Of a stretch of DNA of 21,851 nucleotides, positions 1,680 through 21,851 are shown piece by piece. Positions within the stretch are counted from its first letter, which is position 1; each line of letters begins with the position of its first letter. The DNA comes from a virus, in the IMG/VR virus record IMGVR_UViG_3300017917_000124, positions 1-21,851 of that record; one strand, written 5' to 3'. The position numbers were made by a program, and so were the translations under genes. The notes below the pieces were generated by a model. The model searched no databases and was not told the DNA's origin. It saw only the letters and a program-made list of their open reading frames with translations.

Positions 1680-1812
1680 TTTGATTACCCTTTAAAAACG
1701 CTACTCTAATACGTGTGGAAGAGACCACAACCTGTCGAGGCTGTGAATCTCTACTCACTACTGCTTGAGCTTTTCCGCTCTTGACTAATTTTTCTATTTG
1801 ACTCTGTTTCAT
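1660..1812 (-). CDS. Overlapping 50-codon basic protein, unknown function
   Basis: I found this frame by reading the gap between the two MAKQ genes. It starts at an ATG sharing one base with the stop of the giant gene (TAATG) and ends 20 bases inside the 149-aa gene. The 50-aa product begins MKQSQIEKLV, is basic (many Lys, Arg, Gln) and has no Cys, no signal peptide and no membrane segment. The overlaps at both ends suggest translational coupling, and otherwise a 132-base gap would break an operon that has almost no gaps. I do not recognise the family. It could be a small virion accessory protein or mainly a translational bridge. It could also be chance, since the frame is short. Confidence 0.6.
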   Translation of the reverse strand: MKQSQIEKLVKSGKAQAVVSRDSQPRQVVVSSTRIRVAFLKGNQNGKTNN

Positions 1813-4800
1813 TAGTGTTTACCTACAACAATTTCTATGGTGCCTCGATCAGTTGACTCTTTGTTTTCAAGAGCTTTACCGATAACCGTACCAACTTTTG
1901 CATCATTGTCTACGATAGCATAGCCTGGTATTGCAGCAGCTACCAACATGTCACCCTTGTTAACACGACCAATAACCTTACAAGGTACACGACCTTGTAG
2001 TGCTATTGCTGTTACATAAGTGCCTTCTAGTTGGCTGTTCATTAGGTGTGCAGGATTTGTAGAAACAACACCCGCTACTCGTCTGTCACTTCTAATATCT
2101 GTAGTAGTAACTTCTGCTGATCCACCAAACACTAGTACTGTGCCAGGTTCATATTCTGCATCACCTAGATAGTTTTCTGCCAAGTCAGCATAGTATGATT
2201 CAGTGGCTGTACCTCTGAACAGAGTAGCATAGATATTTGCATACTTTAGTGTAGCACTACCAATGTTATAAATGTTGTCAGTTTCTGGTACAGCGCCTGT
2301 TGAACTAAACTTCATAGGCACTACACTTGAGCTTGTTCCAGCGTCTGCAACCACCATACTGATCTGTCCAGCTGTAGACTTACCAGTATTAGCACCAATA
2401 GCAATACCTGTTGATGCTGTGCCTCTTTCACCAGGTGCTTCTAGGAATGAAGTATAAATCCAGTCAACACCTAGTCTCTTTTCGTTGTTAAAGTTAGATG
2501 CTGCCTGTAGAACACTCTGTTGTATTCCTGTGCCGCTAATATTAACGTTACCTGGAATCTGTAGGTCAGGATATGTAGGTGTTGCGCCGCCACTACCACC
2601 GACTGCTCGTAGTATCACGCCCTGTGCAGGTGTTTTAAACACTAGCTCAGTAGTGTCAAGTGCTAGCACTTCATAGCTTGAGTCACCGCCTAGTATTAGT
2701 GAGTTGACCTGTATGCTACCGCTACTGTTGGTTTTAACTATAGAATTAGTTTCACCTGTTTTAGTAACATTGGTTACACCGTAAACACCAGTAGCTGTTT
2801 TTATCAGTGCTAGACCAGGATCAACACCTGCCCCAAGTTCTGTTGTAAAATCGCCATCTTCGAGACCACCGCCTTGATTAACAATAGTACTGAAAGATAT
2901 TTCACTCACAGCACCTGTTGATCCAGTTGAATTACCAACAACTGTCTTTGAAGAAATGTTCTGAATAGATGCTAGTGATACACCGTTATTCTTAAGTGAT
3001 ATAAATCCATTAGTAGCATCAAAGTTCAGATTACTAAATGCAGCACTACCTAGATCGTTCTGTGTAATGCCCGTAGCATTGGCTCTTGTAGTCGCAGCAT
3101 TTAGACTTAGCTTGCTCTGAGCAATAGCTGCACTACCGCTTACGTCTGCGTTAACAATAGTACCTGCCTTTATCTGTGCGTTTAATGATGTGTATCTACT
3201 TGGTGAAAGGACTCTGTTAGTTGTAAGTTGAATGTCACTAGATGCATTCCATACACCGTTAGCCCATTCGTCAATTGGTCCATCAACTACCTGTCCGCCA
3301 GCACCACCTAGTACACTAACAAAGTCAGCTACTGTAATTCCAGAACCGCTGTTTGGTGTATAAACTAATGCTATTAGATCGCCTTCGTAACCTTGTACCT
3401 CAAACAGATCTACTACAGTGCCTGTTGATCCAGAATCGCTGCCGGTAAACACATCACCTACTTCAAAAGGTCCCCCAACAATAGTAGTTGCAAGAACAAA
3501 TATTTTCTTATATCCTGTTGCTACTAGTAATTGGTTAGCTTGTAGATCATTGATTTCAATGTCTCGCAATTTTGAAGTTGCATTAACTGTTGAAGATGAT
3601 GCATCAACGTATGCTTTAGTTGCAGCATCTGATGCTGTTATAGGTGCTCGCAAGTTAGTGATAGTGTTGCCCGCTGCATTTAGATCATCTGTCATTGGTA
3701 CTGCACCGTTAGGAGCAAGCACACCAGGACCTAATTTATTTGCAACAGCATTACCGTTTACATCATAGCCTAAACGTCTGTTTACATAACCACGCACAGC
3801 ACTTTCTGTAGGAACGCTGTCTGATGCGTTGTCAGTCATAGCCGAGTCTGTTGAGAACTCAGTAATAACAACACCGCGTTTGAATCCTAGTCCGTCAACG
3901 TCTGACAGTGCAAGTGAAGCACTGAATGTAACTGTACCAGTACCTTGGTCAACGCTAAAGAATCTACCTACACGGAAGATACCGTTTTGGTCTGTACTTA
4001 CATAGAACACACGACCCTTACCACGTTCCTGTACTTCTTTGGCTTGATCTGCTTCTCTTGGAAGACCAAAAATTACGTTAGGATAGTTACTTTGGTTAAA
4101 TCCGCCTGTACCTACGTCTAAGAAATCATGCGATGTAGCACGACAGGTTGAAATGTTAACAGTAACGCTACCTGTCGATCCTGCTTCAAGACCTGCTCTC
4201 AGTGTAACAGTTTCACTGCCTAATATTACAGGAGTTGAAAGGCCACTAACTGTGACCTGATTAATGTCGTCGCCTGTTGGTTCAATGTCAACAATACCGT
4301 AGGCGTTATCTTCTGCAACAGGAACTACAACGTTACTAGCATTAACACCTCTATAGTTGAACACGTAGAATTTCTTACCACCCCATGAAAGTATTGGAGC
4401 TCTAACTAGAGATCCTGCGGTCCAACCTGCGGGTCTATTTGCTTCAGGTGTCTTGAGGTTGTTGTTTAATCTGAATACTTCGTTAGCATCCACCGTCGGC
4501 GCAACAGCAATTACTACGTCACCAATTGTTCCACCCTTGGTTGTGCCACCATTGTTAAGTGCTGTTTGAGCAGCTTTTTCGGCATCAACAATCAATCGTA
4601 TGTAATCATAACTGGTATCAAATCCTGCCTGTGATTGATTTAGATCTAAATCATTGCCCAAGCTATCAGAATTGATAAAGCTGATTGATCTATAAACAGT
4701 GTTTGGATCTTCATCAAAGATCACAGCAGTTGAAGGTCTAATAGATAGTACGTCTGGTCTTGCAAGGTCTCCTAGAACGTGTGTTTGATTTCTTCTTAGG

Positions 4801-7800
4801 TTAAACAACACACCCCATGGAACAGCATTTAGCAGACCGTTTGTACTATATCGTACATCTGATGTTGAGAAGTTTAGTTTATAAACAACACCACTATATT
4901 TAGGTGTTGATGCTTCAACAGCGATTGTACCAGCAACAGTGACTCCTGTTATCTGCCCTGCAGAGTTTATAGATGAAACTGTTATAACAGCATTGTTAGC
5001 TGGAGTAGCACCGCCTAATTGTGCGCCTGCAACTGTTATAGTATCGCCAACGGAATAGTCTTCACCTATGGTAGTGATAGACGCAGTGTAACCGTATTCG
5101 ATTGTTTTGTAAAGAGTAAATCTAGCACCGGTACCAGCTACGCTTACTGTGGTAGCAGGAATAGTACCACCAACGTCTGGGAATGATCCTACCACTGGTC
5201 CCGCTACTTGAACGTTTGCTACTTCGTAACGAGCGAACGCGGGTCTAGCAGGATGATAGATATCTAGCTCTGATCTATTGCTTGGTATATCTTTAATATC
5301 GTAAGCATGTAGATATAGCTGTTCAACAGGGTTTCCATAGCCTGTAGAATCAACGTCTACAGGGACACTGTTTGCACCAAGTCCTACAGGTCCTACAGTC
5401 TTTTGCAATTGATGCGTTGCGTCAAATGCACCAGTAACATTTTTTAGGTAAATTACTCTAGAACCAGTAGCAGCAGTACTTACAGAAACAGTACCTGTTG
5501 CAGTACTGACTAGCTGGCTAATTGTATCACCTTCAACAAGTGTTACAGGTCCAGTTAGATATAGAACAACGTCTGCATTAAATGTTCTAGCAGGCTGCAC
5601 CATGTCCTGTACCAGTTCAACAGCATCAGGAATTTCATTAGGGTCTGAACCTTCTGCTACTAGGCCATATTCGCCGTAACAGCTTGAACCTGTTAAAGAA
5701 CGAATCTCTGAACCATTCTTGGCATAGTAGGATGTCCAGCAGTAGTAGGTAAACATCGATACCATTTCTGATAGCGCACCGTTTACACAGACTAGTCCAT
5801 AACCCAAGTCATTAACCTGTGTAAAGTCATTGCCCAGCATAGATCTATTACCTGCTGTCTGTAGCGTAATGTCTAATGGAGCAGGAACACTCTGTACTAC
5901 TCGTCTTGTAATCAAGGCAGTGTTTACATCGATCGCATCTTTAGCATCTTGATATGCTGCCAGTGCCCAAGTTATATTTGGGTATGCTGTAGCTGGTAGT
6001 GCTGAAAGCGTGTCTGAACTGATAACTGCTTGAATAATTCCTACTAGGTCTTCAACAATAGCCTGTTCTGTTGCTGATGCTGCTGTGCCTGATGTTTGAC
6101 CAGGATATAAGTTTCTAACTATCTGACCAACAATAGTTGCTAACTGCCCCATCGCAGCAGCAGTAACAGCCTTTTGTGCTGAAGGTAGAACACTAACTGC
6201 TCCTTCAAAATAAGCAGTAGCAGCTGATATCGTTGCTGAGTTACCTTCATATTGAACGTCATAGCTTAGTGCATCAACAATGTATCTAATATCTCTAGCG
6301 CACTTAACACCGTCATAAACTAGACCAACATAGTTAGCTGTGAGCCAAGCAATTATTTCACTTGATATAAAAGTTCTATTGGATTGTAACAGTGTTCTTG
6401 CTCTAGTTCTGTTTACACTGGTTCCCGGATTGGTCCAGGTAATTGCGTTAGCAGCACCCTCACCATTTTGAATGATGTCAATTACTTCGTTAAATGCTGC
6501 GGTAGCCCTAGATGTAGCAGTACCATTTGCTAGTACTTCTGGTAGTGCTAATACCTCAGCTTTACCAACTTCAATAGCATCTACTGTTTCAGTAAGTTGG
6601 TTATCAATAACTTCTGAAGCATTGCCTCGTCTGTAGGCAAGACCGTTTGTCACAGCATTATAATTTGTTCCTAGTGCTAGGTCATAACCTACACCTTGTA
6701 AAATTATACCTGTGTCTCTTGCACATTTTGCTTCGTCAAATTCAAATTCACCGATTGCATCTAAATTGTAGCCTGTGATTAACGAGCTTGTAATACCGCT
6801 AAATCCTAAACCGTCGTTTGAGTTTCTATCAAGTATTAGTTCAGCTGTACCAAAGTCCGGATCGTATTGTGTACATGCATTAACCTGGAAACGTCTACCG
6901 TCAATGTAGAATGCACTTGGTGTTTCAGGCTTGCGAATAAACAGACCCTGATCCGGCAAACTCTTGATTCTCAATCTAAATGGATCGCCATCAACTCGTT
7001 CAACAACCTGTACAGCACTATTACCAGTAAAGGCGTCGATAAACATACCACCACGGAATGCTTTTTTATTCAAGCTGGCTGAGAATGAAGAACCTGTCTG
7101 TATGTATGGTGATTTAGTAAGTACCTGTCCTTCAGGATCGAGAACGACCATGAAGCCGCCATGTCCTTGTACAGTACAGTTACGAATAATAGTTGCATCA
7201 TTCATCAAGAACACATCCATGTCCTTGTTATGCAGTGGTGGATTGTAGGCTGGATTAAATGCAAATGTTACAGTATCGATTAAGTTCTCTACTGTTTGAA
7301 CTGGCCCGTAAACTTCTGTCCAATATGCAGATATTTCAGGAGCATTGAAAACAGGACCAGATGTGTGTTCAGAAACGCACTGATAGTAGACGTAATTACC
7401 GCCTACAAAAAATCTAATTACATTGCCAACTCTATACAATTCTCCAGCGGCCCAATCTGCTGGATCAGCACTACCATTAAATAGGTCTGGCTCTGGATAG
7501 TCTAAATCTACTCCGTATATTGTTGGAGGAGCTTCACCGTCAAATAGATACGAAGCGATTGTATAGATATAGTTCATACCTGCGATACAACCAGCCTGAT
7601 TGATTCCACCAAGCGAACCGCTATAGAATTCTCCCTGTGTTTCTAGAGAAAATTCGTTGCCACCGTTGCGTAGGTCTTTTATCAATGCTTCAACAATGTA
7701 GCCTGTATCTCTCTTGCTTTTTGCTTCGCTGTAGTTACCTACCATTGATGGATAGGTAGTATTGATATACTTGACTACCTGCTCTTGTATAAACTCTTTA

Positions 7801-10424
7801 TTGTCAATGAGTGTAAGTGCAGCAGTTTCCCAATTACCAATATTTCTATAACCAGCACCGATGTTCTTTAATCTGCTGGGGTCTCTTAGATAGTGATAAC
7901 CAAAGTAACCATCCACGTTTCCTGATATAGGATTGATATATTCAACACCATTTGGTACTGAAGTAATCTCTATGAGAAGATCAGGTGCGCCGCCAGCGCC
8001 AAGTTCATCATCTGGAACTGTTATTAAGTCACCCACTCTCCAATTCTTACCAGTATTTGTTGCAGTGATATCAGTAACTGCACCATTGGCATCAACAGTG
8101 ATTTCAAACTCTGCTTCTATACCATAGCCTGTTGTTACATACTGATTAGGTAATATTGTATATGTTCCAGCTGTGCGCACAGGATGTGCAGGTGTGCTAG
8201 AAGTTAATGTTTCAATAGATGATTTACCTAATACAAGTCCGTCAAACTCGCTGTCTCTATAGAAGAATGTAGTTGCATATCTTGATTGAGATATTCTATT
8301 CTTAGGACGTATTAGAACACGACGGAATTCATCACCGTTGATTGAAACGTTAGGCGGAATTCTAATAGGATAGTCTTCGTGATAGATACCGCTTTCAACT
8401 TGTAGAGTGATCTGTGTCTCTCTAACAATCTCACCGTATTCTAGCTGTTCGCCTTCTTGGAATTCAGTAGGTTCCAACAATTGAACTTCAATTTCGTCTG
8501 TTTCAACAACACTAACTGCTCGTGGTCCTGATTCATATTTGTAATCAATAATTTTAGCAATAGCGCCTGAGCTCTTACCGCGAACAATTTTTCCTGGAAT
8601 AATATCTGTGTTTTCTGGATTGGCTTGATCAATGAAGCCAAAGTTACCATTTGAAATATTAATTTTATAATTTGTAGAACCGTCAACGATAGGTGGTGCA
8701 TCAAGCACACCGTCATTAATAACATCTAGTATGATCTGGAACTTTGCATCAATAGCATCGTCAGCCGCAGCATCTGGTATTACAGTAGGTTCAATATACT
8801 GTTCTATTCTATTTTGGTAAGTTGTTGGTACTGGTAGATTCTTAAGAATATAATTTACAACAAGATTTCTAGCGTACTGAATACCAGCAATCGTTTCGGT
8901 TCTTTGACTTCCTATAGCCTTTTGTGCTGAAGGACTTGAGTAGTATCTAATACCAGACCAACGTGAAAGATAGTTTGCGTTGTTTCCTAGAAGTGCATCA
9001 ATTGAAACAGCTTCAAGAATATAGCCTACATCTCGCTGGCATAGCTCTACATTGTATGATCCTGCAAATGCTGGATATAATGAATCAATATAGGCTGTAA
9101 CTTCTTTTTGTATAAATTCTTTGTTAGCTAGAATCAGTGTTCTAGCATTGTTTCTACCTGCGATAGGTGATGTTACACCCGAACTTACAATTTCACCTGT
9201 GCCTGCACCTGAATTATAAGTCATGGTCTGCATGTAAGGACCAGGCTCATAAGGTGCTGACAGGATTATTTCTTCTGCCTTGCGAGCAGCAGCATTTAGT
9301 GTTCTATAAGCATAGGCAGGATTTCTACCCTCTTTACCTACTGGAGTATTAGTCTGTCTATCATCACCGTTCGTAGCAACATACAGGTTTACTTGGCTAG
9401 TTGCGGCAGCATTGTCAACATAAAGTTTTGTTGCAGCTTGTAGGTCATCAGGTCCGTTTGGTAAACCAAAACCTGACAGTTCGCCTGGATGGTCGCTTAG
9501 GTGTAGCACACCTTCCATGCTATCGCCCTGTCTACGAACAATAGATTTTCTAGGCAGTGCAACATTTGATAACCAATTACCTGTTAGGTCTGGATCGTAA
9601 GCAGCATCAGTGATTGAGAACGTTCCTGTGCCACCACTTAATAGAATTCTTGAAGTACCGTTAACAGCATCAGTTTCAGTAGGATGCAGTGATATAGAGT
9701 TTGGTGTTTGAATTCTTATGTAAACAGTTCCGCCTGTGGTTACACCAAATGGGTCTGTTCCTGTGGAACGGAATATAAAAGGAGCACCATTAAATGCTTG
9801 TGTTAATCCGTGGCCGGGAATTGTTAGATTACCTAAGCTAATACCTGTTGATGTTTTAATGTACTGACTAGTACTGGCAGGTTCGTCTGCTAGACGAAGG
9901 CCACCACCCGCAACTTCTTTTTGCTGATAGTTTCTATCACCATAGGCTTTGTTAATAACAAGAGCGTCAATGCTTAAATCAGTACCGTAAACAGAGTTAA
10001 ATGTATCAATAGCTGCCTGTGATATTGCTACGTTAGCAATAGGCTGTGTAGCAGCATTTAGTGGACCACCTAGTACAGGTTCTGGGTCATTAGATACTTT
10101 TGAAACTAGCTGTCTAACAATTAACTTGCCATCTACACTAAAATCAAATCCAATAGTATCGATTGATCCGTCAAAGGCATTGTCAGATGCTAGTTGTAAA
10201 AACGCAATACCTGAACCATCGCCTTTAACAGCAGGAACCTTGTTTTCCTGCCCTTCGTAAGTATCCGGAGTATCAGTTAGGTCAGTTAGCGATATCTGTC
10301 CGCCAATACCAAATACAGCATACAGTTCTGTAAAGTTTTCATTAACCTTACGGAACGATTCTCGTATACTATCGCCGGTACCGTCGTTACCTTCTACGCC
10401 AATGTTAATATTTTGCTTTGCCAT
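1812..10424 (-). CDS. Giant fibre-like virion structural protein (2870 aa)
   Basis: The protein is a mosaic of fibre modules. Residues 1-39 are the MAKQxINIG module shared with the 149-aa protein. AATKLYVDN is near residue 330. An alpha-helical module with the core NKxFI...RDxGYIxxA appears near residues 431-540, 870-960 and 1343-1440, with a partial copy near 1232. Segments near 680 (GIYHEDYPIRIPPN) and 1080 (CTVQGHGG) look like parallel beta-helix edges. PTESAVRGYVNRRLG is near 2205 and DAATKAYVD near 2265. The last ~130 residues (YADLAENY, VAGVVSTNPAH, IGKALE) resemble C-terminal chaperone-type domains (peptidase G2-like) of phage fibres and spikes. GGAG lies 8 bases before the ATG, and the gene follows the Fe-S gene after 11 bases. 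It is likely a long tail fibre or other appendage that binds the host. No transmembrane helix or catalytic motif is obvious. Confidence 0.9.
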   Translation of the reverse strand: MAKQNINIGVEGNDGTGDSIRESFRKVNENFTELYAVFGIGGQISLTDLTDTPDTYEGQENKVPAVKGDGSGIAFLQLASDNAFDGSIDTIGFDFSVDGKLIVRQLVSKVSNDPEPVLGGPLNAATQPIANVAISQAAIDTFNSVYGTDLSIDALVINKAYGDRNYQQKEVAGGGLRLADEPASTSQYIKTSTGISLGNLTIPGHGLTQAFNGAPFIFRSTGTDPFGVTTGGTVYIRIQTPNSISLHPTETDAVNGTSRILLSGGTGTFSITDAAYDPDLTGNWLSNVALPRKSIVRRQGDSMEGVLHLSDHPGELSGFGLPNGPDDLQAATKLYVDNAAATSQVNLYVATNGDDRQTNTPVGKEGRNPAYAYRTLNAAARKAEEIILSAPYEPGPYMQTMTYNSGAGTGEIVSSGVTSPIAGRNNARTLILANKEFIQKEVTAYIDSLYPAFAGSYNVELCQRDVGYILEAVSIDALLGNNANYLSRWSGIRYYSSPSAQKAIGSQRTETIAGIQYARNLVVNYILKNLPVPTTYQNRIEQYIEPTVIPDAAADDAIDAKFQIILDVINDGVLDAPPIVDGSTNYKINISNGNFGFIDQANPENTDIIPGKIVRGKSSGAIAKIIDYKYESGPRAVSVVETDEIEVQLLEPTEFQEGEQLEYGEIVRETQITLQVESGIYHEDYPIRIPPNVSINGDEFRRVLIRPKNRISQSRYATTFFYRDSEFDGLVLGKSSIETLTSSTPAHPVRTAGTYTILPNQYVTTGYGIEAEFEITVDANGAVTDITATNTGKNWRVGDLITVPDDELGAGGAPDLLIEITSVPNGVEYINPISGNVDGYFGYHYLRDPSRLKNIGAGYRNIGNWETAALTLIDNKEFIQEQVVKYINTTYPSMVGNYSEAKSKRDTGYIVEALIKDLRNGGNEFSLETQGEFYSGSLGGINQAGCIAGMNYIYTIASYLFDGEAPPTIYGVDLDYPEPDLFNGSADPADWAAGELYRVGNVIRFFVGGNYVYYQCVSEHTSGPVFNAPEISAYWTEVYGPVQTVENLIDTVTFAFNPAYNPPLHNKDMDVFLMNDATIIRNCTVQGHGGFMVVLDPEGQVLTKSPYIQTGSSFSASLNKKAFRGGMFIDAFTGNSAVQVVERVDGDPFRLRIKSLPDQGLFIRKPETPSAFYIDGRRFQVNACTQYDPDFGTAELILDRNSNDGLGFSGITSSLITGYNLDAIGEFEFDEAKCARDTGIILQGVGYDLALGTNYNAVTNGLAYRRGNASEVIDNQLTETVDAIEVGKAEVLALPEVLANGTATSRATAAFNEVIDIIQNGEGAANAITWTNPGTSVNRTRARTLLQSNRTFISSEIIAWLTANYVGLVYDGVKCARDIRYIVDALSYDVQYEGNSATISAATAYFEGAVSVLPSAQKAVTAAAMGQLATIVGQIVRNLYPGQTSGTAASATEQAIVEDLVGIIQAVISSDTLSALPATAYPNITWALAAYQDAKDAIDVNTALITRRVVQSVPAPLDITLQTAGNRSMLGNDFTQVNDLGYGLVCVNGALSEMVSMFTYYCWTSYYAKNGSEIRSLTGSSCYGEYGLVAEGSDPNEIPDAVELVQDMVQPARTFNADVVLYLTGPVTLVEGDTISQLVSTATGTVSVSTAATGSRVIYLKNVTGAFDATHQLQKTVGPVGLGANSVPVDVDSTGYGNPVEQLYLHAYDIKDIPSNRSELDIYHPARPAFARYEVANVQVAGPVVGSFPDVGGTIPATTVSVAGTGARFTLYKTIEYGYTASITTIGEDYSVGDTITVAGAQLGGATPANNAVITVSSINSAGQITGVTVAGTIAVEASTPKYSGVVYKLNFSTSDVRYSTNGLLNAVPWGVLFNLRRNQTHVLGDLARPDVLSIRPSTAVIFDEDPNTVYRSISFINSDSLGNDLDLNQSQAGFDTSYDYIRLIVDAEKAAQTALNNGGTTKGGTIGDVVIAVAPTVDANEVFRLNNNLKTPEANRPAGWTAGSLVRAPILSWGGKKFYVFNYRGVNASNVVVPVAEDNAYGIVDIEPTGDDINQVTVSGLSTPVILGSETVTLRAGLEAGSTGSVTVNISTCRATSHDFLDVGTGGFNQSNYPNVIFGLPREADQAKEVQERGKGRVFYVSTDQNGIFRVGRFFSVDQGTGTVTFSASLALSDVDGLGFKRGVVITEFSTDSAMTDNASDSVPTESAVRGYVNRRLGYDVNGNAVANKLGPGVLAPNGAVPMTDDLNAAGNTITNLRAPITASDAATKAYVDASSSTVNATSKLRDIEINDLQANQLLVATGYKKIFVLATTIVGGPFEVGDVFTGSDSGSTGTVVDLFEVQGYEGDLIALVYTPNSGSGITVADFVSVLGGAGGQVVDGPIDEWANGVWNASSDIQLTTNRVLSPSRYTSLNAQIKAGTIVNADVSGSAAIAQSKLSLNAATTRANATGITQNDLGSAAFSNLNFDATNGFISLKNNGVSLASIQNISSKTVVGNSTGSTGAVSEISFSTIVNQGGGLEDGDFTTELGAGVDPGLALIKTATGVYGVTNVTKTGETNSIVKTNSSGSIQVNSLILGGDSSYEVLALDTTELVFKTPAQGVILRAVGGSGGATPTYPDLQIPGNVNISGTGIQQSVLQAASNFNNEKRLGVDWIYTSFLEAPGERGTASTGIAIGANTGKSTAGQISMVVADAGTSSSVVPMKFSSTGAVPETDNIYNIGSATLKYANIYATLFRGTATESYYADLAENYLGDAEYEPGTVLVFGGSAEVTTTDIRSDRRVAGVVSTNPAHLMNSQLEGTYVTAIALQGRVPCKVIGRVNKGDMLVAAAIPGYAIVDNDAKVGTVIGKALENKESTDRGTIEIVVGKH

Positions 10425-11456: not shown

Positions 11457-12473
11457 TTATTTAGTAGCATACTCATAAAGGCGCTGTGTAGCAAGATTCT
11501 TCATTTTGCTTTCTACCATAATATCAGCATGATCTAAAAATGCAAGGGCCCAATCGTTAACAGCATCATTCCACATATAGTCAGAATGTGCTCTTAGTTT
11601 GGCTTTTTTGTATCCTTGTCCAATAAGATCTTCCAAGGCCGGCCTTTGGTCTTGTCTATGTTCTGTGAGATAATCTTCTCTAGATATACTGTAATGAATA
11701 ACAGGACGCACACCGCGCCAACTGTCAATAACACGTTTGAATCTATCATCATTGGGTTCTATATACTCCCCTGTTTTACACCAGTGATGGTGAATATCTA
11801 GCACTAAGCCCAAATGTCCACTGAGTTCGAGGCTGTGTTCGATTCCCCAGGTGTTTTCGTCGTTTTCGATCGTGATGGTGTTTCTTGCTTCTGTGGATAA
11901 CCTTGGGAGGACTGCTTTGATGCCGTCGGGACCGCGCCTACCCGCGATGTGGACGTTGATCTTAAAGTCCTGGAAAGTCTTGCCATATCCCATCCAACGG
12001 GCCATATCTGCATGATACTCAAACTCCTCTATGCTTCGATCTACAATTTCATCGTTATCAGAAGCCAACACTGTAAACTGGCCAGGATGCATACTGAGAC
12101 GAACATTAAGCCTACGAGCAGCCTCACCCACCTTGGCAAATTCTCTTTCACAGTAGCTTTTAACATCTCCCAGTCTCCAATAATACCCCCATGTAGGCTC
12201 AGTGTAGACAGGCAAGCAATCGCTACCCAATCTAACCATTCTAAGCTCTTGCGGTAAAGTGCCAACATATTCTACTAGATTCCTGTACGAAGCAATATTA
12301 TGCTCCATAATATCCCACAGTCTTTGTTCTGCAACATCCTTGGTCTGTCTGTTGAGCCATTGGACTGTGGTTGCTCTAGTATTTAGTGGACGTTCAATCT
12401 CTTCCAGGAGCTTCTTCTTCTGGGTTTGATCTGGGTGCATATATTTGCAAGCGAAGCCGATACGTTTAGTCAT
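11457..12473 (-). CDS. uvsE: UV damage endonuclease (UvdE/UvsE family)
   Basis: The enzyme nicks DNA 5' to UV photoproducts and starts an excision pathway independent of UvrABC. The 338-aa product has the family motifs in order: RIGFACKY (4-11), EHN (H58), LSMHPGQF (H129), NVHIAG (H175), IENDE (E203), DIHHH (D226), HYS (H260), HSDYMWN (H296) and MVESKMKN (E321). These correspond to the His/Glu/Asp metal ligands of the TIM-barrel active site, and all appear intact. Its length is normal for the family. Repair of UV damage suits a phage of sunlit water. The ATG at 12473 lies six bases from a perfect sigma70 -10 box and has no Shine-Dalgarno, so the message is probably leaderless. A later start would lose RIGFACKY. 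Confidence 0.95.
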   Translation of the reverse strand: MTKRIGFACKYMHPDQTQKKKLLEEIERPLNTRATTVQWLNRQTKDVAEQRLWDIMEHNIASYRNLVEYVGTLPQELRMVRLGSDCLPVYTEPTWGYYWRLGDVKSYCEREFAKVGEAARRLNVRLSMHPGQFTVLASDNDEIVDRSIEEFEYHADMARWMGYGKTFQDFKINVHIAGRRGPDGIKAVLPRLSTEARNTITIENDENTWGIEHSLELSGHLGLVLDIHHHWCKTGEYIEPNDDRFKRVIDSWRGVRPVIHYSISREDYLTEHRQDQRPALEDLIGQGYKKAKLRAHSDYMWNDAVNDWALAFLDHADIMVESKMKNLATQRLYEYATK

Positions 12474-13114: not shown

Positions 13115-13816
13115 TTATTTCCAGTTTTCTTTGCACCAAGGATCTATGCAGTCCGCAGGATTTGGCTCTCCATGGAATACTGCAATACTTGTGGTTGGTT
13201 TAATTAAAGGTTCACCAGGAGTTTCAAAATTCCTGATACCTTTACTATCTCTTATCATATGAGGTTTGCCGCGCATTTCCCACTTGTAACTTTGTATCCA
13301 TTCGTCAGGCCAATAGTTAAAGTTCTGTTTGACAGAGTAATAGATCCAATCTTGATCGCCATGAAACTTTCCTATTACATTTTTAGGATTTTTAATTAAA
13401 TCTAGATAGACATGACTGTGCTGTCCAGTTTCTAATCTAAACACACTAGAATTAAATTTAGCGTAGTCTTTGATCATGCAGCGATTAAAGTCTCTTATGA
13501 TACAAAACTCTCCGGGCTTGTATGTGAACAAATAATCGATGTTGTTAAAAACAATTAGATCTAGATCTAAAAATAATACAGTGCCTTTTAGTTCTAACTG
13601 CGGGTCAAAGAACATTGGCTTGTACCACCAACCTTGGATACCAGAGTGAAGCGTCAATTGTTTGACTGTTATGCGAGGATCTATTCCGGCAGGATCTTCT
13701 GTATAGCATACAAACTCATGCGGAACCGTTAAGTTCCGCTCTACCATAGAATAGAGCGTATTAACGTATTCCGCAGAGTACTTGTTACCGTATTTTAAAC
13801 AGACAACGTAATTCAT
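13115..13816 (-). CDS. Glycosyltransferase-like protein with DxD motif
   Basis: The 233-aa product opens with a beta strand (MNYVVCLKYG), as in GT-A folds, and carries VLFLDLDLIVF with the D84-L-D86 metal/nucleotide-sugar motif, FHGDQDWIYY (D154, D156) and a late VFHGEPNP (H215). This order resembles family 8-type retaining glycosyltransferases, which move sugar from a nucleotide-sugar to an acceptor. There is no signal peptide or membrane segment, so it acts in the cytoplasm. The ATG overlaps the stop of the pterin-synthase homologue (TAATG), with GAAGG just upstream. Acceptors could be virion proteins, phage DNA or a host glycan; none is indicated. Confidence 0.75.
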   Translation of the reverse strand: MNYVVCLKYGNKYSAEYVNTLYSMVERNLTVPHEFVCYTEDPAGIDPRITVKQLTLHSGIQGWWYKPMFFDPQLELKGTVLFLDLDLIVFNNIDYLFTYKPGEFCIIRDFNRCMIKDYAKFNSSVFRLETGQHSHVYLDLIKNPKNVIGKFHGDQDWIYYSVKQNFNYWPDEWIQSYKWEMRGKPHMIRDSKGIRNFETPGEPLIKPTTSIAVFHGEPNPADCIDPWCKENWK

Positions 13817-14343
13817 TAACCTTCGTAGATAGCTGAGTTAGCATCGTGTTCAAATACTTCTGCTGAGAGTAGACGAACACCTTGGCCTGTAGGATAACGT
13901 GCTTCAAATGTTCTTCCATCTGGATGTGTCCACGCCCTACCTTCCTTGTATGCTTCAAGTATTTCATTCATTGTGTGGTACGCAAGTTCTGCAAACTTTT
14001 CGCAGCCTACCGCTTCAACTAGACGTAGATCAATAATACCTCTGTTTTGAAAGCCACCTTGTATCTTGTTTAGTTCGATAAATGTACCGCGTTCGGGATC
14101 GTCGTGGGCGATGATCAAAGTGTGATCAAACATCCATTCTGACCACTCCTTGAAAGCCTTAAGTCCACCGAAGTCCATAACCCAGTTACGATCATCTAGT
14201 GTCTCGCTTTCAAACTGTAGTCTAATACCAATTGAGTATCCGTGAAGTAGTGAGCAGTGTGAGTGTGTGGAACGCCACTGTCTAAAGCAACAGCTCAGAC
14301 CTCTGTCGTTACCGTAAGTTTTTGTTGAAATATATTTTGCCAT
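13816..14343 (-). CDS. 6-pyruvoyl-tetrahydropterin synthase / QueD-family homologue
   Basis: The family converts 7,8-dihydroneopterin triphosphate to pyruvoyl- or carboxy-tetrahydropterin, toward tetrahydropterins or 7-deazaguanines. The 175-aa product keeps the frame of the family: C30-x3-H34-G, WVMDFGGLK (54-62), a DHTL segment, a Glu in GCEKFAELAY, and a C-terminal VFEHDANSAIY. The zinc site departs from E. coli QueD: the second His of HGH is Tyr36, the AAH histidine is absent, and an H27-S-H29 pair precedes the Cys. I believe this variant is a recognised group in marine T4-like phages, so it may use altered ligands. The start is backed by AAAGGAGA about 10 bases upstream. It heads a coupled trio with the glycosyltransferase-like and oxygenase genes. 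Confidence 0.82.
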   Translation of the reverse strand: MAKYISTKTYGNDRGLSCCFRQWRSTHSHCSLLHGYSIGIRLQFESETLDDRNWVMDFGGLKAFKEWSEWMFDHTLIIAHDDPERGTFIELNKIQGGFQNRGIIDLRLVEAVGCEKFAELAYHTMNEILEAYKEGRAWTHPDGRTFEARYPTGQGVRLLSAEVFEHDANSAIYEG

Positions 14344-14468: not shown

Positions 14469-15033
14469 CCTTTACATTGCGTTCATTCCAGGCTTTAGGT
14501 AATGCCCAGTCATTAGGTTGATAAATCGTAAAATTAATTTTTGGAAAGCATTGAAATATCATACCTATTTGGTGTATCCAATAAACTGGATTAATAAAAT
14601 TATGATCGCTTTCTTTGTAGCCGTCTGTGTCTTTGTAAATGTTATTAATCTTACCTTCGTTGCCGTACAGATCAAATCCTAAGAGATTGACTTCTTTTTC
14701 TTTTGCGTAAGTTGCCGCAACTAGCACAGCATAGGGGCCACTGCCCCAATGCCAAGGATCATCCCATCGTTCGTTTCCTTTGTAGGGAAGATCCGGCACT
14801 CTGCGTATATTTTTTGTGTTATATTGATCTATCCAGTTGTGTCTAGTGTAGACTAGAGTAGTTTCGTTTATGCCTCTGCGTATAGCTTCGTCAACCATCT
14901 TGTTGTCTACACAAACAAGATAGTCCATAGCATAGTCACGCATGATAGCATTACAACCAACCTTGGGACCTTGCAGTTGATTGATGTCTATGTTCTTACG
15001 GCTTTCGCCATTGCCTATCGCATACATAGACAT
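14443..15033 (-). CDS. Possible glycosyltransferase-like protein (196 aa)
   Basis: The N-terminus MSMYAIGNGESRKNIDIN followed by VGCNAIMRDYAMDYLVCVDN resembles the nucleotide-binding start of CST-type (sialyltransferase-like) and DUF115-type proteins, where a Gly-Asn-Gly loop follows the first strand. A later EVNLLGFDLYG segment fits the same fold. The assignment is tentative: I see no complete active-site set. Many Trp and Tyr residues lie in the C-terminal half. There is no signal peptide or membrane helix. The start follows the membrane-protein stop by seven bases and lacks a Shine-Dalgarno, so translation is probably coupled; ATG at 15027 is an alternative. It adjoins the pterin/glycosyltransferase/oxygenase trio and may work with it. 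Confidence 0.6.
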   Translation of the reverse strand: MSMYAIGNGESRKNIDINQLQGPKVGCNAIMRDYAMDYLVCVDNKMVDEAIRRGINETTLVYTRHNWIDQYNTKNIRRVPDLPYKGNERWDDPWHWGSGPYAVLVAATYAKEKEVNLLGFDLYGNEGKINNIYKDTDGYKESDHNFINPVYWIHQIGMIFQCFPKINFTIYQPNDWALPKAWNERNVKVDNISKIS

Positions 15034-15040
15034 ATTTACA

Positions 15041-15337
15041 TTAGACTTTTAAGTCTTTCTTTATTTCCTGGATATCTTGTCTTACTGAATCAAACTTTTC
15101 AGTAGTATTGTTCATAACTATTGCTAGGTCAGCAATTTTATAAAGAGCCCACCACCACCAAACAACAGCCACAAAGAAAAATGTGCCGGTGCCTACTATA
15201 ATGGCTTTGTGATAAAAACTGTCCCATCCTACAAAATAAGACAGAGCAAGAAATGATAAGACGACGATAGGTAATGTGCCTGCGAAAAACGCCCACAATT
15301 TCACTTGACGAGTTGTGCCTTTTAAAAAGTTAAACAT
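15041..15337 (-). CDS. Two-helix membrane protein with C-terminal coiled coil
   Basis: The 98-aa product has two hydrophobic stretches, about residues 13-37 (WAFFAGTLPIVVLSFLAL) and 44-68 (including FFFVAVVWWWWALY), and a charged helical tail from 70 to 98 rich in Lys, Asp and Glu. A basic N-terminus precedes the first helix, so both ends probably face the cytoplasm. Size and topology would suit a holin, but they also suit other small phage membrane proteins and no lysin gene is next to it. The start is clear: GGGAG stands 7 bases before the ATG. A late promoter and a hairpin that would mask this ribosome site lie at 15347-15370, so the protein is probably made only late. Confidence 0.8.
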   Translation of the reverse strand: MFNFLKGTTRQVKLWAFFAGTLPIVVLSFLALSYFVGWDSFYHKAIIVGTGTFFFVAVVWWWWALYKIADLAIVMNNTTEKFDSVRQDIQEIKKDLKV

Positions 15338-15346
15338 TGATTTTCT

Positions 15347-15370
15347 CCCTCAGGAAAATATTTATGAGGG
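15347..15370 (-). promoter_or_regulatory. Late promoter within a ribosome-site-masking hairpin
   Basis: The minus strand has arms CCCTCA (15370-15365) and TGAGGG (15352-15347) around a 12-base loop. The late element CATAAATA (seven of eight bases) occupies 15366-15359. In a transcript arriving from the upstream fibre gene the GAGGG of the ribosome site pairs with CCCTC. A transcript started from the late element, about 6 bases downstream, begins at the 3' arm and leaves the site free. T4 uses this design for late genes such as e. Confidence 0.6.
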
Positions 15371-15395
15371 CGTTGAAAGAATTTAAATGCTGGTA

Positions 15396-16514
15396 TTAAG
15401 GAGCTATCTGACCGAATGGTTTCCATTCGCCAGGAGTACCGTCTCTTGTGCAAACCCAACCTACATAGCCGGTAGGTTTTGGATTTGAATTCCAAACTAT
15501 ATCGCCAACTTTATAACTGCCTGCGTTTGGTATGGCATCTGCTACTTCTTGACGCTTGCCTTGGAATTTAACAGGTCCTGCTGTTACGATATCGCAGTCA
15601 GGATTTTTAATGTTAACGCCTAGCTTGCCCTGTACAGTGGTTACAGCTTCTACGTTAGAACCAATTGTAATACGACCAGCTGAACTGATAGATATACGTG
15701 CAGTGTTATCAGTGATAATATCAAAGTCGCTAGCTGTCCAGTTACCTATGCGAGTGCCTTTGATTGTCTCAACATCAATTACAAATTCACCGTCCATGCC
15801 TGCAACACTTACAGTTCCATTTGGTGATTCAGTACCGATGCCTAATCTCTGTGATGCACTTTCGTAGTGTAGATACTCGTCTACGTTTAAACTGCCCTGT
15901 GTTCTAAGATCTCTCAGTGTACCAACAGTAGTTAAACTTGAATTAGTTACTGTAGGTCCTAGTTCTCTTGCTGATAGTGCAACAGTATTACCAATGAAGT
16001 AGGCAGCATCTTGATGTAGATCAATTGACTCTGAACTCCATATCCTGTCAGGATTGGCTTGATAGATAAACTGTTTGGTAGATGCGCCAGTTCTCCAGAA
16101 TAGGCCTTTACCGTATACGCTCTTACCTTCTTCTGCTACAAACTCTAAAGGACTTGTTCTTTCGTTTCTTATGTCTGCTGTTATTTCATTTACATGAAGT
16201 TTCTTTGCAGTTATCTCACCATGAACAAATAGGTTGCCTTTGACATTTGTATTTGAAAGGATGTTCTGAACATTGATATTCTCTGTGTGCAATCCTTTGT
16301 CGTTAACAAGAACAACGGATTGTGTAGCATCGTCTTTTATACCAATGCTTTGGAATTTAACTATTTTGCCGCCGCTGATGTGGTCGCCTGAAAGGCTTCT
16401 CTTTAATATTTCAGGTTGCGGAACTGGACGTGTGGCGATGCTCTCTACAGCTTTGTAGAGAGCATCCATTCCCTGTCTTAAATTTAGTAGATCAATGTCA
16501 GTAGTATCACTCAT
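15396..16514 (-). CDS. Tail-fibre-type structural protein (372 aa)
   Basis: I start this at ATG 16514 (MSDTTDIDLLNLRQGMDALY). The frame extends five codons further to a TTG inside the promoter hairpin, which is unlikely to be used. Residues ~1-30 look helical. The rest is a chain of short beta-type repeats typical of fibres: GNLFVHGEITAKKLHVNEI, TVGTLRDLRTQGSLNVDEYL, RLGIGTESPNGTVSVAG, and GKLGVNIKNPDC. The C-terminus (NSNPKPTGYVGWVCTRDG, then PGEWKPFG) is the familiar YVGWVCT..GtpGtWk-type end domain of phage fibre and spike proteins. A late promoter lies directly upstream. It is probably a virion fibre or a hinge/connector part, made late. No enzyme motif is seen. Confidence 0.85.
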   Translation of the reverse strand: MSDTTDIDLLNLRQGMDALYKAVESIATRPVPQPEILKRSLSGDHISGGKIVKFQSIGIKDDATQSVVLVNDKGLHTENINVQNILSNTNVKGNLFVHGEITAKKLHVNEITADIRNERTSPLEFVAEEGKSVYGKGLFWRTGASTKQFIYQANPDRIWSSESIDLHQDAAYFIGNTVALSARELGPTVTNSSLTTVGTLRDLRTQGSLNVDEYLHYESASQRLGIGTESPNGTVSVAGMDGEFVIDVETIKGTRIGNWTASDFDIITDNTARISISSAGRITIGSNVEAVTTVQGKLGVNIKNPDCDIVTAGPVKFQGKRQEVADAIPNAGSYKVGDIVWNSNPKPTGYVGWVCTRDGTPGEWKPFGQIAP

Positions 16515-16537
16515 GCAAGTATTTATCAAATACCTGC
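16515..16537 (-). promoter_or_regulatory. Late promoter in a 10-bp hairpin abutting the fibre start codon
   Basis: The minus strand reads GCAGGTATTT-GAT-AAATACTTGC and then the ATG at once. The arms pair over 10 bp with one G-U. GATAAATA (16527-16520), seven of eight bases of the late element, spans the loop and 3' arm. Initiation about 6 bases downstream falls on the A of the ATG, predicting a leaderless late message. Read-through RNA would carry the start codon flush against a stable stem. Confidence 0.55.
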
Positions 16538-16545
16538 ATCAGCAA

Positions 16546-17838
16546 TTAATTGACCTTTAGCAACACCGTATCAGCGTTAATACGACCATTTAATTTGGTG
16601 TCTGTTGTGTTGATGTTTTCAAGGAACTTGCGCAGTGCAACCTTGCCAGAGTTCTTAAACTCTTTGAGCTGTAGTTCAGGCTTGCGCAGTGTCTTTTGAA
16701 CACTGAGTTCTTCATTGAATCCAATGATTGTAGCACCCTTAACACTGAGACCGCTACCAGCACGAGCCTGTCCTGTAGGATCGATGTTTTGGGCTACATA
16801 TTTGCCCAATTTACGAGTCTTTGTGTTGAACACCCAAAGTTCGTTTGCACCCACAATTTCTGTAGGATTAATTGAAGCCAAACTGTTCTTATTGTCCACT
16901 TTGCAGTACTTGAGTTTGGACACCAACTTATCTGCTGATTTGGGCTTAGGAGTACGGGTCTTACGTGTCGCTTTGCTGGCGTCTACAACAAGCATACAAG
17001 CGTCTACAAGCGTTTCTAGCGCAGTTACATAGTTAGACACATCCTGCTTGGTTAAGTGGCTGTATCCTTCTTTGAGCTGTTCCAAAAGATCGACCTCTTT
17101 TGGATCCATCTTCTTCATTTGGGCGGCAGTGGGCATGTTTTGCAGTTCACGGAACTCTGCCAACTGGGCTTCATAAAATCCCATCAGCTTGCGAGCGTGT
17201 GCCTGTGTAACACCCATTTTAGTAAAATGAGATTTAAAGTCAAAGCCTTTTGGATTAAACTTCTTCTTGTCAGTGATGAAACCTTCCAACCAATCGTCGA
17301 TGGCTTCAGAAGCTGTTCTAGCTTGTTCTGCAATACGTTCCTGAATGGTTGGAACATACGTATTAGCTTTGGCTTTTTCTTCAGCGGCCTCTTGGACTAC
17401 TACAGTCTTACCTTTTTCGATAGCTTCTTCAAGGCGAGCTTTAATAAACGCACTAGCGGGTTTAATTTCACCCATAGTGCCTGCCAGACTCTGCCAATGT
17501 TCGTCATGTGCCTTATTGTAGTCAGGCATGCCTGTACGCAATAGCTTACAGCTGATTGCGACAACAATTGAAACTTCTCCAGCCTTGGCGTGTTTGATCT
17601 GTTCTGCGGTGTATTTGTTCTCTTTCATCCAAGCCCAAACGTCGGGCAATAGATCTGCGAGCTTGTAATGCTCATAATACCAATCTCGGGCGTTACGCTG
17701 AAATCTTTGGTATTGCTCACCGCTCCAAGTTTCCCAACCTTCGAAGTTAGGACCGGTGATTTTGTTACCGCGTTTGATAGTAGGTGCCAATCGCACTTTC
17801 TTTTTGCGAGGCGCCTTGATTGCAGTTTTGGTTGCCAT
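16546..17838 (-). CDS. Conserved-type phage protein of unknown function (430 aa, basic)
   Basis: The N-terminus is strongly basic (KAPRKKKVRLAPTIKRG, residues 8-24), followed by an aromatic stretch (WETWSGEQYQRFQRNARDWY, 35-54). Residues ~130-260 are helical and charged. The segment near 300 is again Lys/Arg-rich (SKATRKTRTPKPKSADK), and the end is a Lys-rich beta/alpha region. The pattern suggests a nucleic-acid-binding or scaffold protein, but I find no catalytic motif and cannot name it. The start has GAGGG about 6 bases upstream. A strong sigma70-type promoter at 17869-17896 gives it a leader of about 24 bases, so it is probably expressed early, ahead of the late fibre gene downstream. 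Confidence 0.85.
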   Translation of the reverse strand: MATKTAIKAPRKKKVRLAPTIKRGNKITGPNFEGWETWSGEQYQRFQRNARDWYYEHYKLADLLPDVWAWMKENKYTAEQIKHAKAGEVSIVVAISCKLLRTGMPDYNKAHDEHWQSLAGTMGEIKPASAFIKARLEEAIEKGKTVVVQEAAEEKAKANTYVPTIQERIAEQARTASEAIDDWLEGFITDKKKFNPKGFDFKSHFTKMGVTQAHARKLMGFYEAQLAEFRELQNMPTAAQMKKMDPKEVDLLEQLKEGYSHLTKQDVSNYVTALETLVDACMLVVDASKATRKTRTPKPKSADKLVSKLKYCKVDNKNSLASINPTEIVGANELWVFNTKTRKLGKYVAQNIDPTGQARAGSGLSVKGATIIGFNEELSVQKTLRKPELQLKEFKNSGKVALRKFLENINTTDTKLNGRINADTVLLKVN

Positions 17839-20642: not shown

Positions 20643-20814
20643 TTTGATATCTTTCAAGCTCGTTAGCGGCTTCTTCTAGCAAATCAGATATCCGATCAGG
20701 TCGACCTTCTTGTACTGATTTACGATCTTGATTATTGCGTCTAATCTCCGCCCGCTTGCGAAGACGGAAGATTAGACTCTGTTCAGCTACCGGTAAATGG
20801 CTTTCGTCTTTCAT
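20617..20814 (-). CDS. Hypothetical small charged protein (65 aa)
   Basis: The ATG at 20814 overlaps the TGA of the RNA ligase (ATGA), and GGGAG lies 8 bases upstream, so I choose it over a TTG seven codons earlier. The product begins MKDESHLPVAEQSLIFRLRK, is very rich in Arg, Glu, Asn and Gln, and seems almost wholly helical (DLLEEAANELERYQNEQ). There are no cysteines or membrane segments. The pattern is common in small phage regulators or adaptor proteins, but no family can be named. It is coupled to the RNA ligase before it and overlaps the 175-aa gene after it. Confidence 0.7.
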   Translation of the reverse strand: MKDESHLPVAEQSLIFRLRKRAEIRRNNQDRKSVQEGRPDRISDLLEEAANELERYQNEQSIKKP

Positions 20815-21710
20815 GCTAATTGCTCCCTTACCCAAGCTAGGCGAGCCTGCTCGTCCATAGCAGTGTACTCAACAATGTTAGCACGAATAGCATCTACCAG
20901 CGGATAGTATTCTTCATCCAAATTGTGCTTGATGTCCTTGTTCAAATCTACCAACTTGTCTGTACGTGGATTGCGAGCAACCCACTTTGAAGTCAAGTAG
21001 TAAGGCGACTTGATCTTAGCACTAACACCATCGTCTGTATAGAATACGTAACCTTCGTGCTTACACTCTTTAGCAAGTTCTTTCAGACGTGCCATGTTTG
21101 TAATAACTGATTCAGCATGGTAGCAGTTAAGCATACGAGCCAAATCCATCAATACACATGGGTCATGTCCGACTTTACTTTTCCAAGTGTTTTCACGATA
21201 ACCTAGTAGATACATGCCTGGCTTTTCTGGAATGATATGCGGATCACTTGGATGCACACATTCGAACATAAAAGTCATGCCATTGTTATCTGGTGTGCCT
21301 AAGATCATTTGCCAATCTGGCAATGGAGCATGTGTTAGCATCATTTCTTTGGCCATAGCAACATAGTCGCTGTCTGTACTACCGGTAGTTGAAACTATCA
21401 GTTCTCCATAAAATACAGTCATAGCAACCATAAAGCCGTTGACCTTACGGAATGCTGTAACACGAGTGTCGTCGGCAAGCACTGGTGCTTCTTTTTCGAT
21501 ACCGTAGTTATAGATTTTTGTGAAAGGATAGGACACTAGGTTGAAGTTGGCATCTACGATAGACCCACGGCATTCGGCAATGTAGTCGTTCCACAGATTA
21601 TCGTAGAATACCTTCTTCTTGTACTTTAACACGAACAACCCGTTGCCGGCTTCCTTCATATTAACCAATCCGGAAGTAGCAACGTACTTCTTTAACTCGT
21701 CCTTAAACAT
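20811..21710 (-). CDS. T4 Rnl1-type RNA ligase, short C-terminus
   Basis: The enzyme joins 5'-phosphate and 3'-hydroxyl RNA ends using ATP; in T4 it repairs tRNA cut by host defence. From ATG 21710 (AGGTGG five bases upstream) it has 299 aa. Motifs in order are ECRGSIVD (46-53), motif I K89-V-N-G92 with the adenylated lysine, STTGST (107-112), MFECVHP with F149-E150, motif IV EGYVFY (219-224) and motif V AKIKSP (K232, K234). The spacing follows T4 Rnl1 (K99, E227, K240/K242). Only 65 residues follow motif V, against about 130 in T4, so most of the C-terminal tRNA-specific domain is missing. The upstream gene ends one base before the ATG, so translation is coupled. Confidence 0.92.
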   Translation of the reverse strand: MFKDELKKYVATSGLVNMKEAGNGLFVLKYKKKVFYDNLWNDYIAECRGSIVDANFNLVSYPFTKIYNYGIEKEAPVLADDTRVTAFRKVNGFMVAMTVFYGELIVSTTGSTDSDYVAMAKEMMLTHAPLPDWQMILGTPDNNGMTFMFECVHPSDPHIIPEKPGMYLLGYRENTWKSKVGHDPCVLMDLARMLNCYHAESVITNMARLKELAKECKHEGYVFYTDDGVSAKIKSPYYLTSKWVARNPRTDKLVDLNKDIKHNLDEEYYPLVDAIRANIVEYTAMDEQARLAWVREQLA

Positions 21711-21711
21711 T

Positions 21712-21851
21712 TTAACCACCTACGTTCTTTCTAGCGATTGCCATTAATGTACTATCGCCTTTGGTCATAACTTCTAACAACAATCTCTTTTCCTCTAAGT
21801 AGGTCTTAGCAAACTTTTGATCGTGTTCTAAGATACTACGAGTGTTAGAGA
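21712..21851 (-). CDS. Unknown gene, only the C-terminal 45 residues in the window
   Basis: One minus-strand frame is open from the right edge to a TAA at 21714-21712; the other two are closed by stops within the first 25 bases. The 45 visible residues are charged and helical (ILEHDQKFAKTYLEEKRLLL) and end in RKNVGG. The stop lies one base before the RNA ligase ATG, the tight spacing seen between real genes here, and the end of the gene carries the ligase's ribosome site. The family cannot be judged from this fragment. Confidence 0.65.
   Translation of the reverse strand, partial: SNTRSILEHDQKFAKTYLEEKRLLLEVMTKGDSTLMAIARKNVGG

Follow-up and report, generated by a model that had tools for sequence, protein, structure and literature searches.

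Among the best described translational switches in phages are those of the T4 genes e (lysozyme), soc, 49 and I-TevI (reviewed in PMC3014915, PMC2988022). In each, a late promoter lies in or beside the 5′ portion of a hairpin; this hairpin conceals the Shine-Dalgarno site or AUG of the early read-through RNA, and the late RNA lacks the 5′ arm. The genes under hairpin control are late genes situated on long early or middle transcripts (PMC2988022). A hairpin that sequesters the ribosome site is also found at the free-standing genes segB of T4 and mobE of Aeh1, both of which are late homing endonucleases (PMC2988022). Our understanding of the T4 switch comes from individual genes of T4 and its close relatives.

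We consider it likely that a T4-type late-gene timing switch operates at a membrane-protein gene of a giant T4-like phage, represented by a 21,851-nucleotide stretch of DNA (IMG/VR virus record IMGVR_UViG_3300017917_000124, positions 1 to 21,851) referred to here as the window. The similarities support placing this gene with the switches of e, soc, 49 and I-TevI, and we did not find the adjoining leaderless variant, considered below, described. The locus differs from the T4 cases in that it belongs to another phage group and concerns an unrelated gene encoding a two-helix membrane protein; in some relatives the late element also lies inside the stem itself. In contrast to segB and mobE, the gene is not a homing endonuclease. 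The elements at its start are as follows.

15041-15337, minus strand: gene for a 98-aa two-helix membrane protein with an invariant WWWW motif
15352-15347, minus strand: 3′ arm TGAGGG, which includes the ribosome site GAGGG (15351-15347)
15353, minus strand: predicted late transcription start (+1), placed by T4 late-box numbering
15366-15359, minus strand: late promoter element CATAAATA, supported by motif enrichment and a gp55 homologue in a 357-kb relative
15370-15365, minus strand: 5′ arm CCCTCA, present in read-through RNA only; every predicted fold pairs it with the 3′ arm
15386-15391, minus strand: AGCATT, predicted in minimum free energy (MFE) folds of the read-through RNA to pair with the start-codon region AATGTT (15338-15333)

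Read 5′ to 3′ on the minus strand, the order is CCCTCA-TAAATA-TTTTCC-TGAGGG-AGAAAATCA-ATG, ending at the gene start at 15337. The two arms make up an inverted repeat of 6 bp without mismatch, closing a loop of 12 nt; the late element shares two bases with the end of the 5′ arm and then runs into the loop, and GAGGG is spaced 9 nt from the ATG. An arrangement with arms flanking a late element and a 3′ arm doubling as the ribosome site had been noted in a first-pass annotation, and it is confirmed here with correct coordinates; the strand, which was not given, is minus. The same annotation expected RNA from the late element to begin at the 3′ arm. The T4 late box is numbered −13 to −6 (PMC1524935), which puts the predicted +1 at 15353, one base ahead of that arm. 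Because the 5′ arm overlaps the promoter box, it follows from the sequence and T4 numbering that RNA from the predicted late promoter would be without the 5′ arm, even if the start lies a few bases off.

Folding the read-through and late leaders gave the predicted outcome that had been proposed, with the Shine-Dalgarno site hidden in the read-through RNA and cheaper to open in the late RNA. The predicted cost of opening the segment from the Shine-Dalgarno site to the AUG is 11.5 kcal/mol in the read-through RNA and only 2.0 kcal/mol in the late RNA; by the same measure the T4 controls give 15.6 and 0.0 for e, 13.2 and 0.35 for I-TevII, and 16.9 and 2.8 for gene 49. The pairing probability of the 3′ arm falls from 1.0 in the read-through RNA to 0.65 in the late RNA, so the late-RNA ribosome site is itself partly, if weakly, paired in the prediction, and this counts against a switch. 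Predicted pairing to the AUG comparable to that of AGCATT is seen in the homologous leaders L031 and L083.

Allowing one mismatch, the window contains 33 copies of TATAAATA where 37 are expected, so the motif shows no enrichment there, and the 357-kb relative G002 was needed to establish it. G002 is a record of 357,559 bases that was searched in full and contains the closely related locus L003. TAAATA lies upstream of 72 genes there in the sense orientation versus 21 antisense; the corresponding counts for the sense and the other strand are 17 and 2 for GATAAATA, and 10 and 3 for CATAAATA. G002 also encodes a gp55-like late sigma factor (phrog_234 match, E 9e-24), the window being a fragment, and the same phrog_234 search was positive in T4 and six other known phages. 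A similar ATAAATA motif has been reported in jumbo phage CBB, where it precedes structural genes (PMC5259590). Judged by comparison, the late element is real.

All of the genes around the membrane gene are co-directional, and the following features bear on the RNA that would enter it from upstream, and on the next gene downstream.

17896-17869, minus strand: sigma-70-type promoter with a 12/12 match to the consensus TTGACA-16-TATAAT, likely early
16546-17838, minus strand: gene for a 430-aa protein (phrog_11903), the first after the early promoter
16539-16528 and 16524-16513, minus strand: arms of a 12-bp hairpin at the start of the fibre gene, with loop GAT
16520-16527, minus strand: late element GATAAATA, 5 nt before the fibre-gene ATG
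15396-16514, minus strand: tail-fibre-like gene (PHROG tail fibre and virion structural matches), predicted to have a leaderless late mRNA
15033-15038, minus strand: TAAATA late element of the next gene (predicted leaderless), whose ATG at 15027 follows after 5 nt

The promoter at 17896-17869 carries the GGTTGACA motif common to many G002 promoters, and no terminator-like site was found on the minus strand between it and the hairpin. With a consensus early promoter upstream, read-through is plausible, and transcripts begun there would traverse the fibre gene before entering the membrane gene.

The fibre gene appears to follow the same switch logic in a stronger form. Its ATG is at 16514, a start supported by the aligned starts of relatives with leaders, and the reading frame is also readable from a TTG at 16529. 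The hairpin, GATGCAGGTATTT-GAT-AAATACTTGCATG, extends over the late element and into the AUG, of which it covers the first two bases. It has an MFE of −23.0 kcal/mol for 71 nt (z −4.9), which none of 200 shuffles reached, and a swap test of the kind described below gave 8.7 for the family's own upstream segments versus 6.6 ± 0.7 (p 0.001). T4 numbering puts the predicted late RNA start exactly on the A of the ATG.

The sequence of events that we infer at the membrane gene is as follows. RNA initiated at the early promoter would carry the CCCTCA arm into the gene, where pairing with TGAGGG would hide the Shine-Dalgarno site and probably the AUG too. Once a gp55-type sigma factor is available later in infection, RNA polymerase would start at about 15353, within the hairpin, and the short late RNA without the 5′ arm would be open to ribosomes. 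At the fibre gene, the late RNA would begin at the AUG itself and would be leaderless, and the read-through hairpin would hide the AUG. The most likely purpose is to silence, until late in infection, those late genes that form part of an early transcription unit.

The hairpin in the window, taken by itself, only marginally beats chance. The 38-nt interval has an MFE of −8.9 kcal/mol, compared with −4.0 ± 2.0 for shuffled sequences, and 2 of 200 shuffles were as good; a 101-nt interval was not significant against shuffles (z −0.25), and local and comparative tests were therefore used instead. Shuffling only the leader's own 5′ segment gave p 0.04 for the window and p 0.23 for L001, and the counterpart hairpin in G002 ranks about 12th among the 102 TAAATA sites upstream of genes (p 0.06). 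As the evidence from a single sequence is marginal, the weight comes from the relatives.

The three relatives with 86% protein identity (L001-L003) retain the 36-nt element CCCTCATAAATATTTTCCTGAGGGAGAAAATCAATG exactly, with an identical CCCTCA arm, and differ in the approximately 25 nt that precede it. A nucleotide similarity search in phages gave no match. A profile search of viral contigs recovered 67 homologous loci of the membrane protein, with 42 distinct leaders when the window is included. In 18 of these a late element lies at least 20 nt before the ATG together with a Shine-Dalgarno site, in 17 it is 4-5 nt before the ATG (predicted leaderless), in one it is at 8 nt, and six leaders are without any late element. 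Several distant homologues (L031, L083, L005, L038 and L080) build the stem at the late element from unrelated sequences, and four of these stems are given here.

L031: CCTCTGTATATGAAT-TAAATA-TTTTCATATAGAGG
L005: CCTAG-TAAATA-TTATACTGAGG, 6 pairs with one bulge
L038: ATACACAT-TAAATA-AGTGTATG
L080: CGTCTA-TAAATA-CTTTATGGACG, 10 pairs with the box itself within the stem

Predicted opening costs for read-through and late RNA are 12.1 and 1.6 kcal/mol for L031, 14.0 and 2.8 for L005, and 8.0 and 1.3 for L083. When 5′ segments were subjected to dinucleotide shuffling, the family mean z was 1.3 for leaders of the Shine-Dalgarno type and 1.5 for leaderless ones, compared with 0.1 and 0.3 for other late genes of G002; the family is higher at p 0.0013 with near-duplicates removed. 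Because the stems shift register between homologues, column-by-column covariation was replaced by a swap test, in which 5′ segments taken from relatives were placed before the 3′ part of each homologue and the hiding of the Shine-Dalgarno site or AUG was scored. For 15 Shine-Dalgarno leaders the own 5′ segment scored 8.74 versus 6.17 ± 0.51 for those of relatives, and for 14 leaderless ones 3.99 versus 2.41 ± 0.40, neither difference being reached in 20,000 permutations. Control sets of late-element genes from five genomes, which still included the genes discussed here, gave differences from −0.1 to +0.9, with a best p of 0.017 and most not significant. These results support the view that the leaders' own upstream sequences are co-adapted to hide the start region, and they are the main evidence for selected pairing; unrelated arm sequences that still pair are comparative evidence for selection on timing by choice of start site.

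Paired changes among relatives, which the first-pass annotation proposed to look for, are borne out by the swap test and by unrelated stems that still pair, and they do not extend to every homologue. Six leaders (L033, L046, L057, L058, L065 and L069) combine a late element with a ribosome site that upstream sequence does not clearly sequester. Loss of the arm with both other elements kept, which the first-pass annotation had named as evidence against its proposal, is therefore seen in some distant homologues (L057, L058 and L069 among them), and the hairpin is frequent rather than universal. The T4-style switch is otherwise well supported by the late motif, the gp55 homologue, a source of read-through RNA, the difference in opening cost (11.5 versus 2.0) and the co-adaptation.

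We also considered whether such hairpins are a general trait of all late promoters and rejected this, because the mean z across the genome is 0.1-0.3 and the swap controls show at most a small effect. The hairpins at the divergent late promoters of G002 (193699-195210) are a by-product of two facing boxes and were excluded as switches. By eye, a terminator-like stem with a T run lies directly upstream of the late element in L058, L070, L072 and L073; such stems would replace a strong hairpin over the Shine-Dalgarno site or AUG as another way to stop read-through. In many leaders (L031, L034, L074, L083, L065, L066 and others) a TTTAAATT-like block comes directly after the stop of the upstream gene and precedes the late element by 20-40 nt; this block can base-pair close to the AUG and may have another role.

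A simple alternative is that the inverted repeat arose by chance in an AT-rich genome and that the gene has a plain late promoter with a short leader. Similar repeats near TAAATA are fairly common in G002, where 12 of 102 sites reach p<0.05 by shuffling, and the hairpin is missing in some homologues. We nevertheless regard this as unlikely, since L001-L003 conserve the element exactly beside a diverged spacer, the swap tests gave 0/20,000 in two classes of leader with little or no effect in controls, and a stronger hairpin is present at the neighbouring fibre gene.

A further reading is that the repeat acts as a DNA dyad, with a bound protein repressing or helping the late promoter. Repeat and promoter do overlap, and there is a precedent in I-TevI, which binds an operator overlapping its own late promoter (PMC2988022). 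A binding site would be expected to keep its sequence, however, whereas the arms among homologues are unrelated in sequence and keep their pairing, and in the strong cases the 3′ side extends to the ribosome site or start codon; we judge this reading improbable. Slightly less probable still is that the hairpin acts mainly on the stability or processing of the read-through RNA, for instance through an RNase cut that frees the ribosome site, rather than on timing. Stem-loops beside start sites can serve as processing sites, but the co-adaptation was measured on hiding of the Shine-Dalgarno site or AUG, and late RNAs starting within the hairpin would offer no site to cut. A timing switch at the membrane gene remains our preferred reading. 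The strongest late-element hairpin hiding a Shine-Dalgarno site in G002 is at a different gene, a 156-aa gene at 31372-31842 (minus strand) with a weak MCD (PF05292) match, where the predicted opening cost is 19.7 versus 1.6.

The leaderless arrangement seen at the fibre gene recurs widely. Across five related records (G002, G007, G008, G009 and G011) the first ATG is most often found 4-5 nt after TAAATA, in a sharp peak of 54 genes; spacings of 6-9 nt account for 10 genes and those of 10-15 nt for 8, and the reverse-complement control motif gives no genes at 4-5 nt. The pattern TAAATAN4-5ATG occurs 30 times in G002 versus 8 for the reversed control. It shows no excess over the reversed pattern in T4, P-SSM2, RaK2 and PA5oct, and KVP40, phiM19 and Aeh1 have too few matches for a judgement. 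In approximately 40% of the homologous membrane-gene leaders, and at the fibre gene, the predicted late start falls on the AUG itself, several with an AUG-hiding hairpin. At the gene starting at ATG 15027, the proteins of relatives begin at the matching codon (for example MYVFGNGES in L086).

We put at about even the chances that, in a group of T4-like phages, many with large genomes, gp55-type promoters placed 4-5 nt before the ATG routinely give leaderless late mRNAs, several of them coupled to AUG-hiding hairpins. The same balanced judgement covers, jointly with it, the suggestion that these hairpins sometimes use the promoter box as one arm, as at the fibre gene of the window and the membrane gene of L080 and L086. 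If true, the choice of start alone would turn an untranslatable RNA into a leaderless message, and late translation would be independent of a Shine-Dalgarno site. Among leaderless phage mRNAs a familiar example is that of lambda cI, which resembles the RNAs proposed here in that translation starts at or near the RNA 5′ end. The present ones differ in being predicted, in coming from gp55-type promoters 4-5 nt before the ATG, and in some having an AUG-hiding read-through hairpin. A transcript study of the jumbo phage AR9 reportedly uses the term leaderless; we found no description in the open-access literature of leaderless RNAs from T4-type late promoters. In G002 (320254-322299, minus strand) and L027 (254-2299), a gene for a CHASE2 and class III adenylate/guanylate cyclase protein (PF05226 2.5e-39, PF00211 7e-15) is preceded by a late element of the leaderless type, and the box of this element serves as one arm of an AUG-covering hairpin.

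The first-pass annotation further suggested that the membrane protein is harmful if made too early, for example as a lysis factor. The late element inside a hairpin may well flag genes that should not be made early, including a membrane protein possibly acting in lysis. The argument for a harmful product is weakened because the tail-fibre gene, which is structural, has an even stronger hairpin of like logic, and because late genes are found on early or middle transcripts, both hairpins can be explained without assuming toxicity. As an addition to the switch, it is possible, if somewhat doubtful, that the protein is a holin and would be lethal to the cell if synthesized early. The protein has 98 aa and two helices with a charged C-terminal helix (sequence and AlphaFold2 model; helices 2-36 and 39-97, mean pLDDT 77), and shows a sub-threshold match to Holin-X (PF07332; E 9e-4, 19.8 bits with a cut-off of 28.4). 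Endolysin-like genes lie close upstream in L072 (GH19, phrog_181 8e-43) and L059 (PF07486), an XhlA-like 80-aa gene is next downstream in many relatives (phrog_1193, a weak match with best E 2.6e-4), and T4 gene t likewise follows tail-fibre genes. Set against this, the endolysin of G002 is approximately 36 kb distant, the structural tail-fibre gene is guarded by a hairpin of the same kind, and the protein matches neither a holin family at a significant level nor any PHROG. A tblastn search with the protein in phages gave no match, and a profile search against solved structures gave only weak matches (E above 0.05), mostly to coiled coils. A holin is thus a possible and weakly supported best guess.

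Curli-type genes are present in the relatives, with CsgF encoded in G002 at 326721-327176 (minus strand), and CsgF and CsgG near the membrane-protein gene of L070 (4198-4686 and 4686-5465); curli genes in marine phages have been discussed as possible lysis regulators (PMC9004378). Elsewhere in the window, the gene at 1812-10424 (minus strand) encodes a 2870-aa protein with tail-fibre PHROG matches, the N-terminus of which resembles T4 gp9/10 at a level narrowly below the Pfam cut-off. The same co-directional block on the minus strand includes genes for a UvdE-like UV endonuclease (11457-12473), a PTPS/QueD-like enzyme (13816-14343) and a T4-type RNA ligase (20811-21719).
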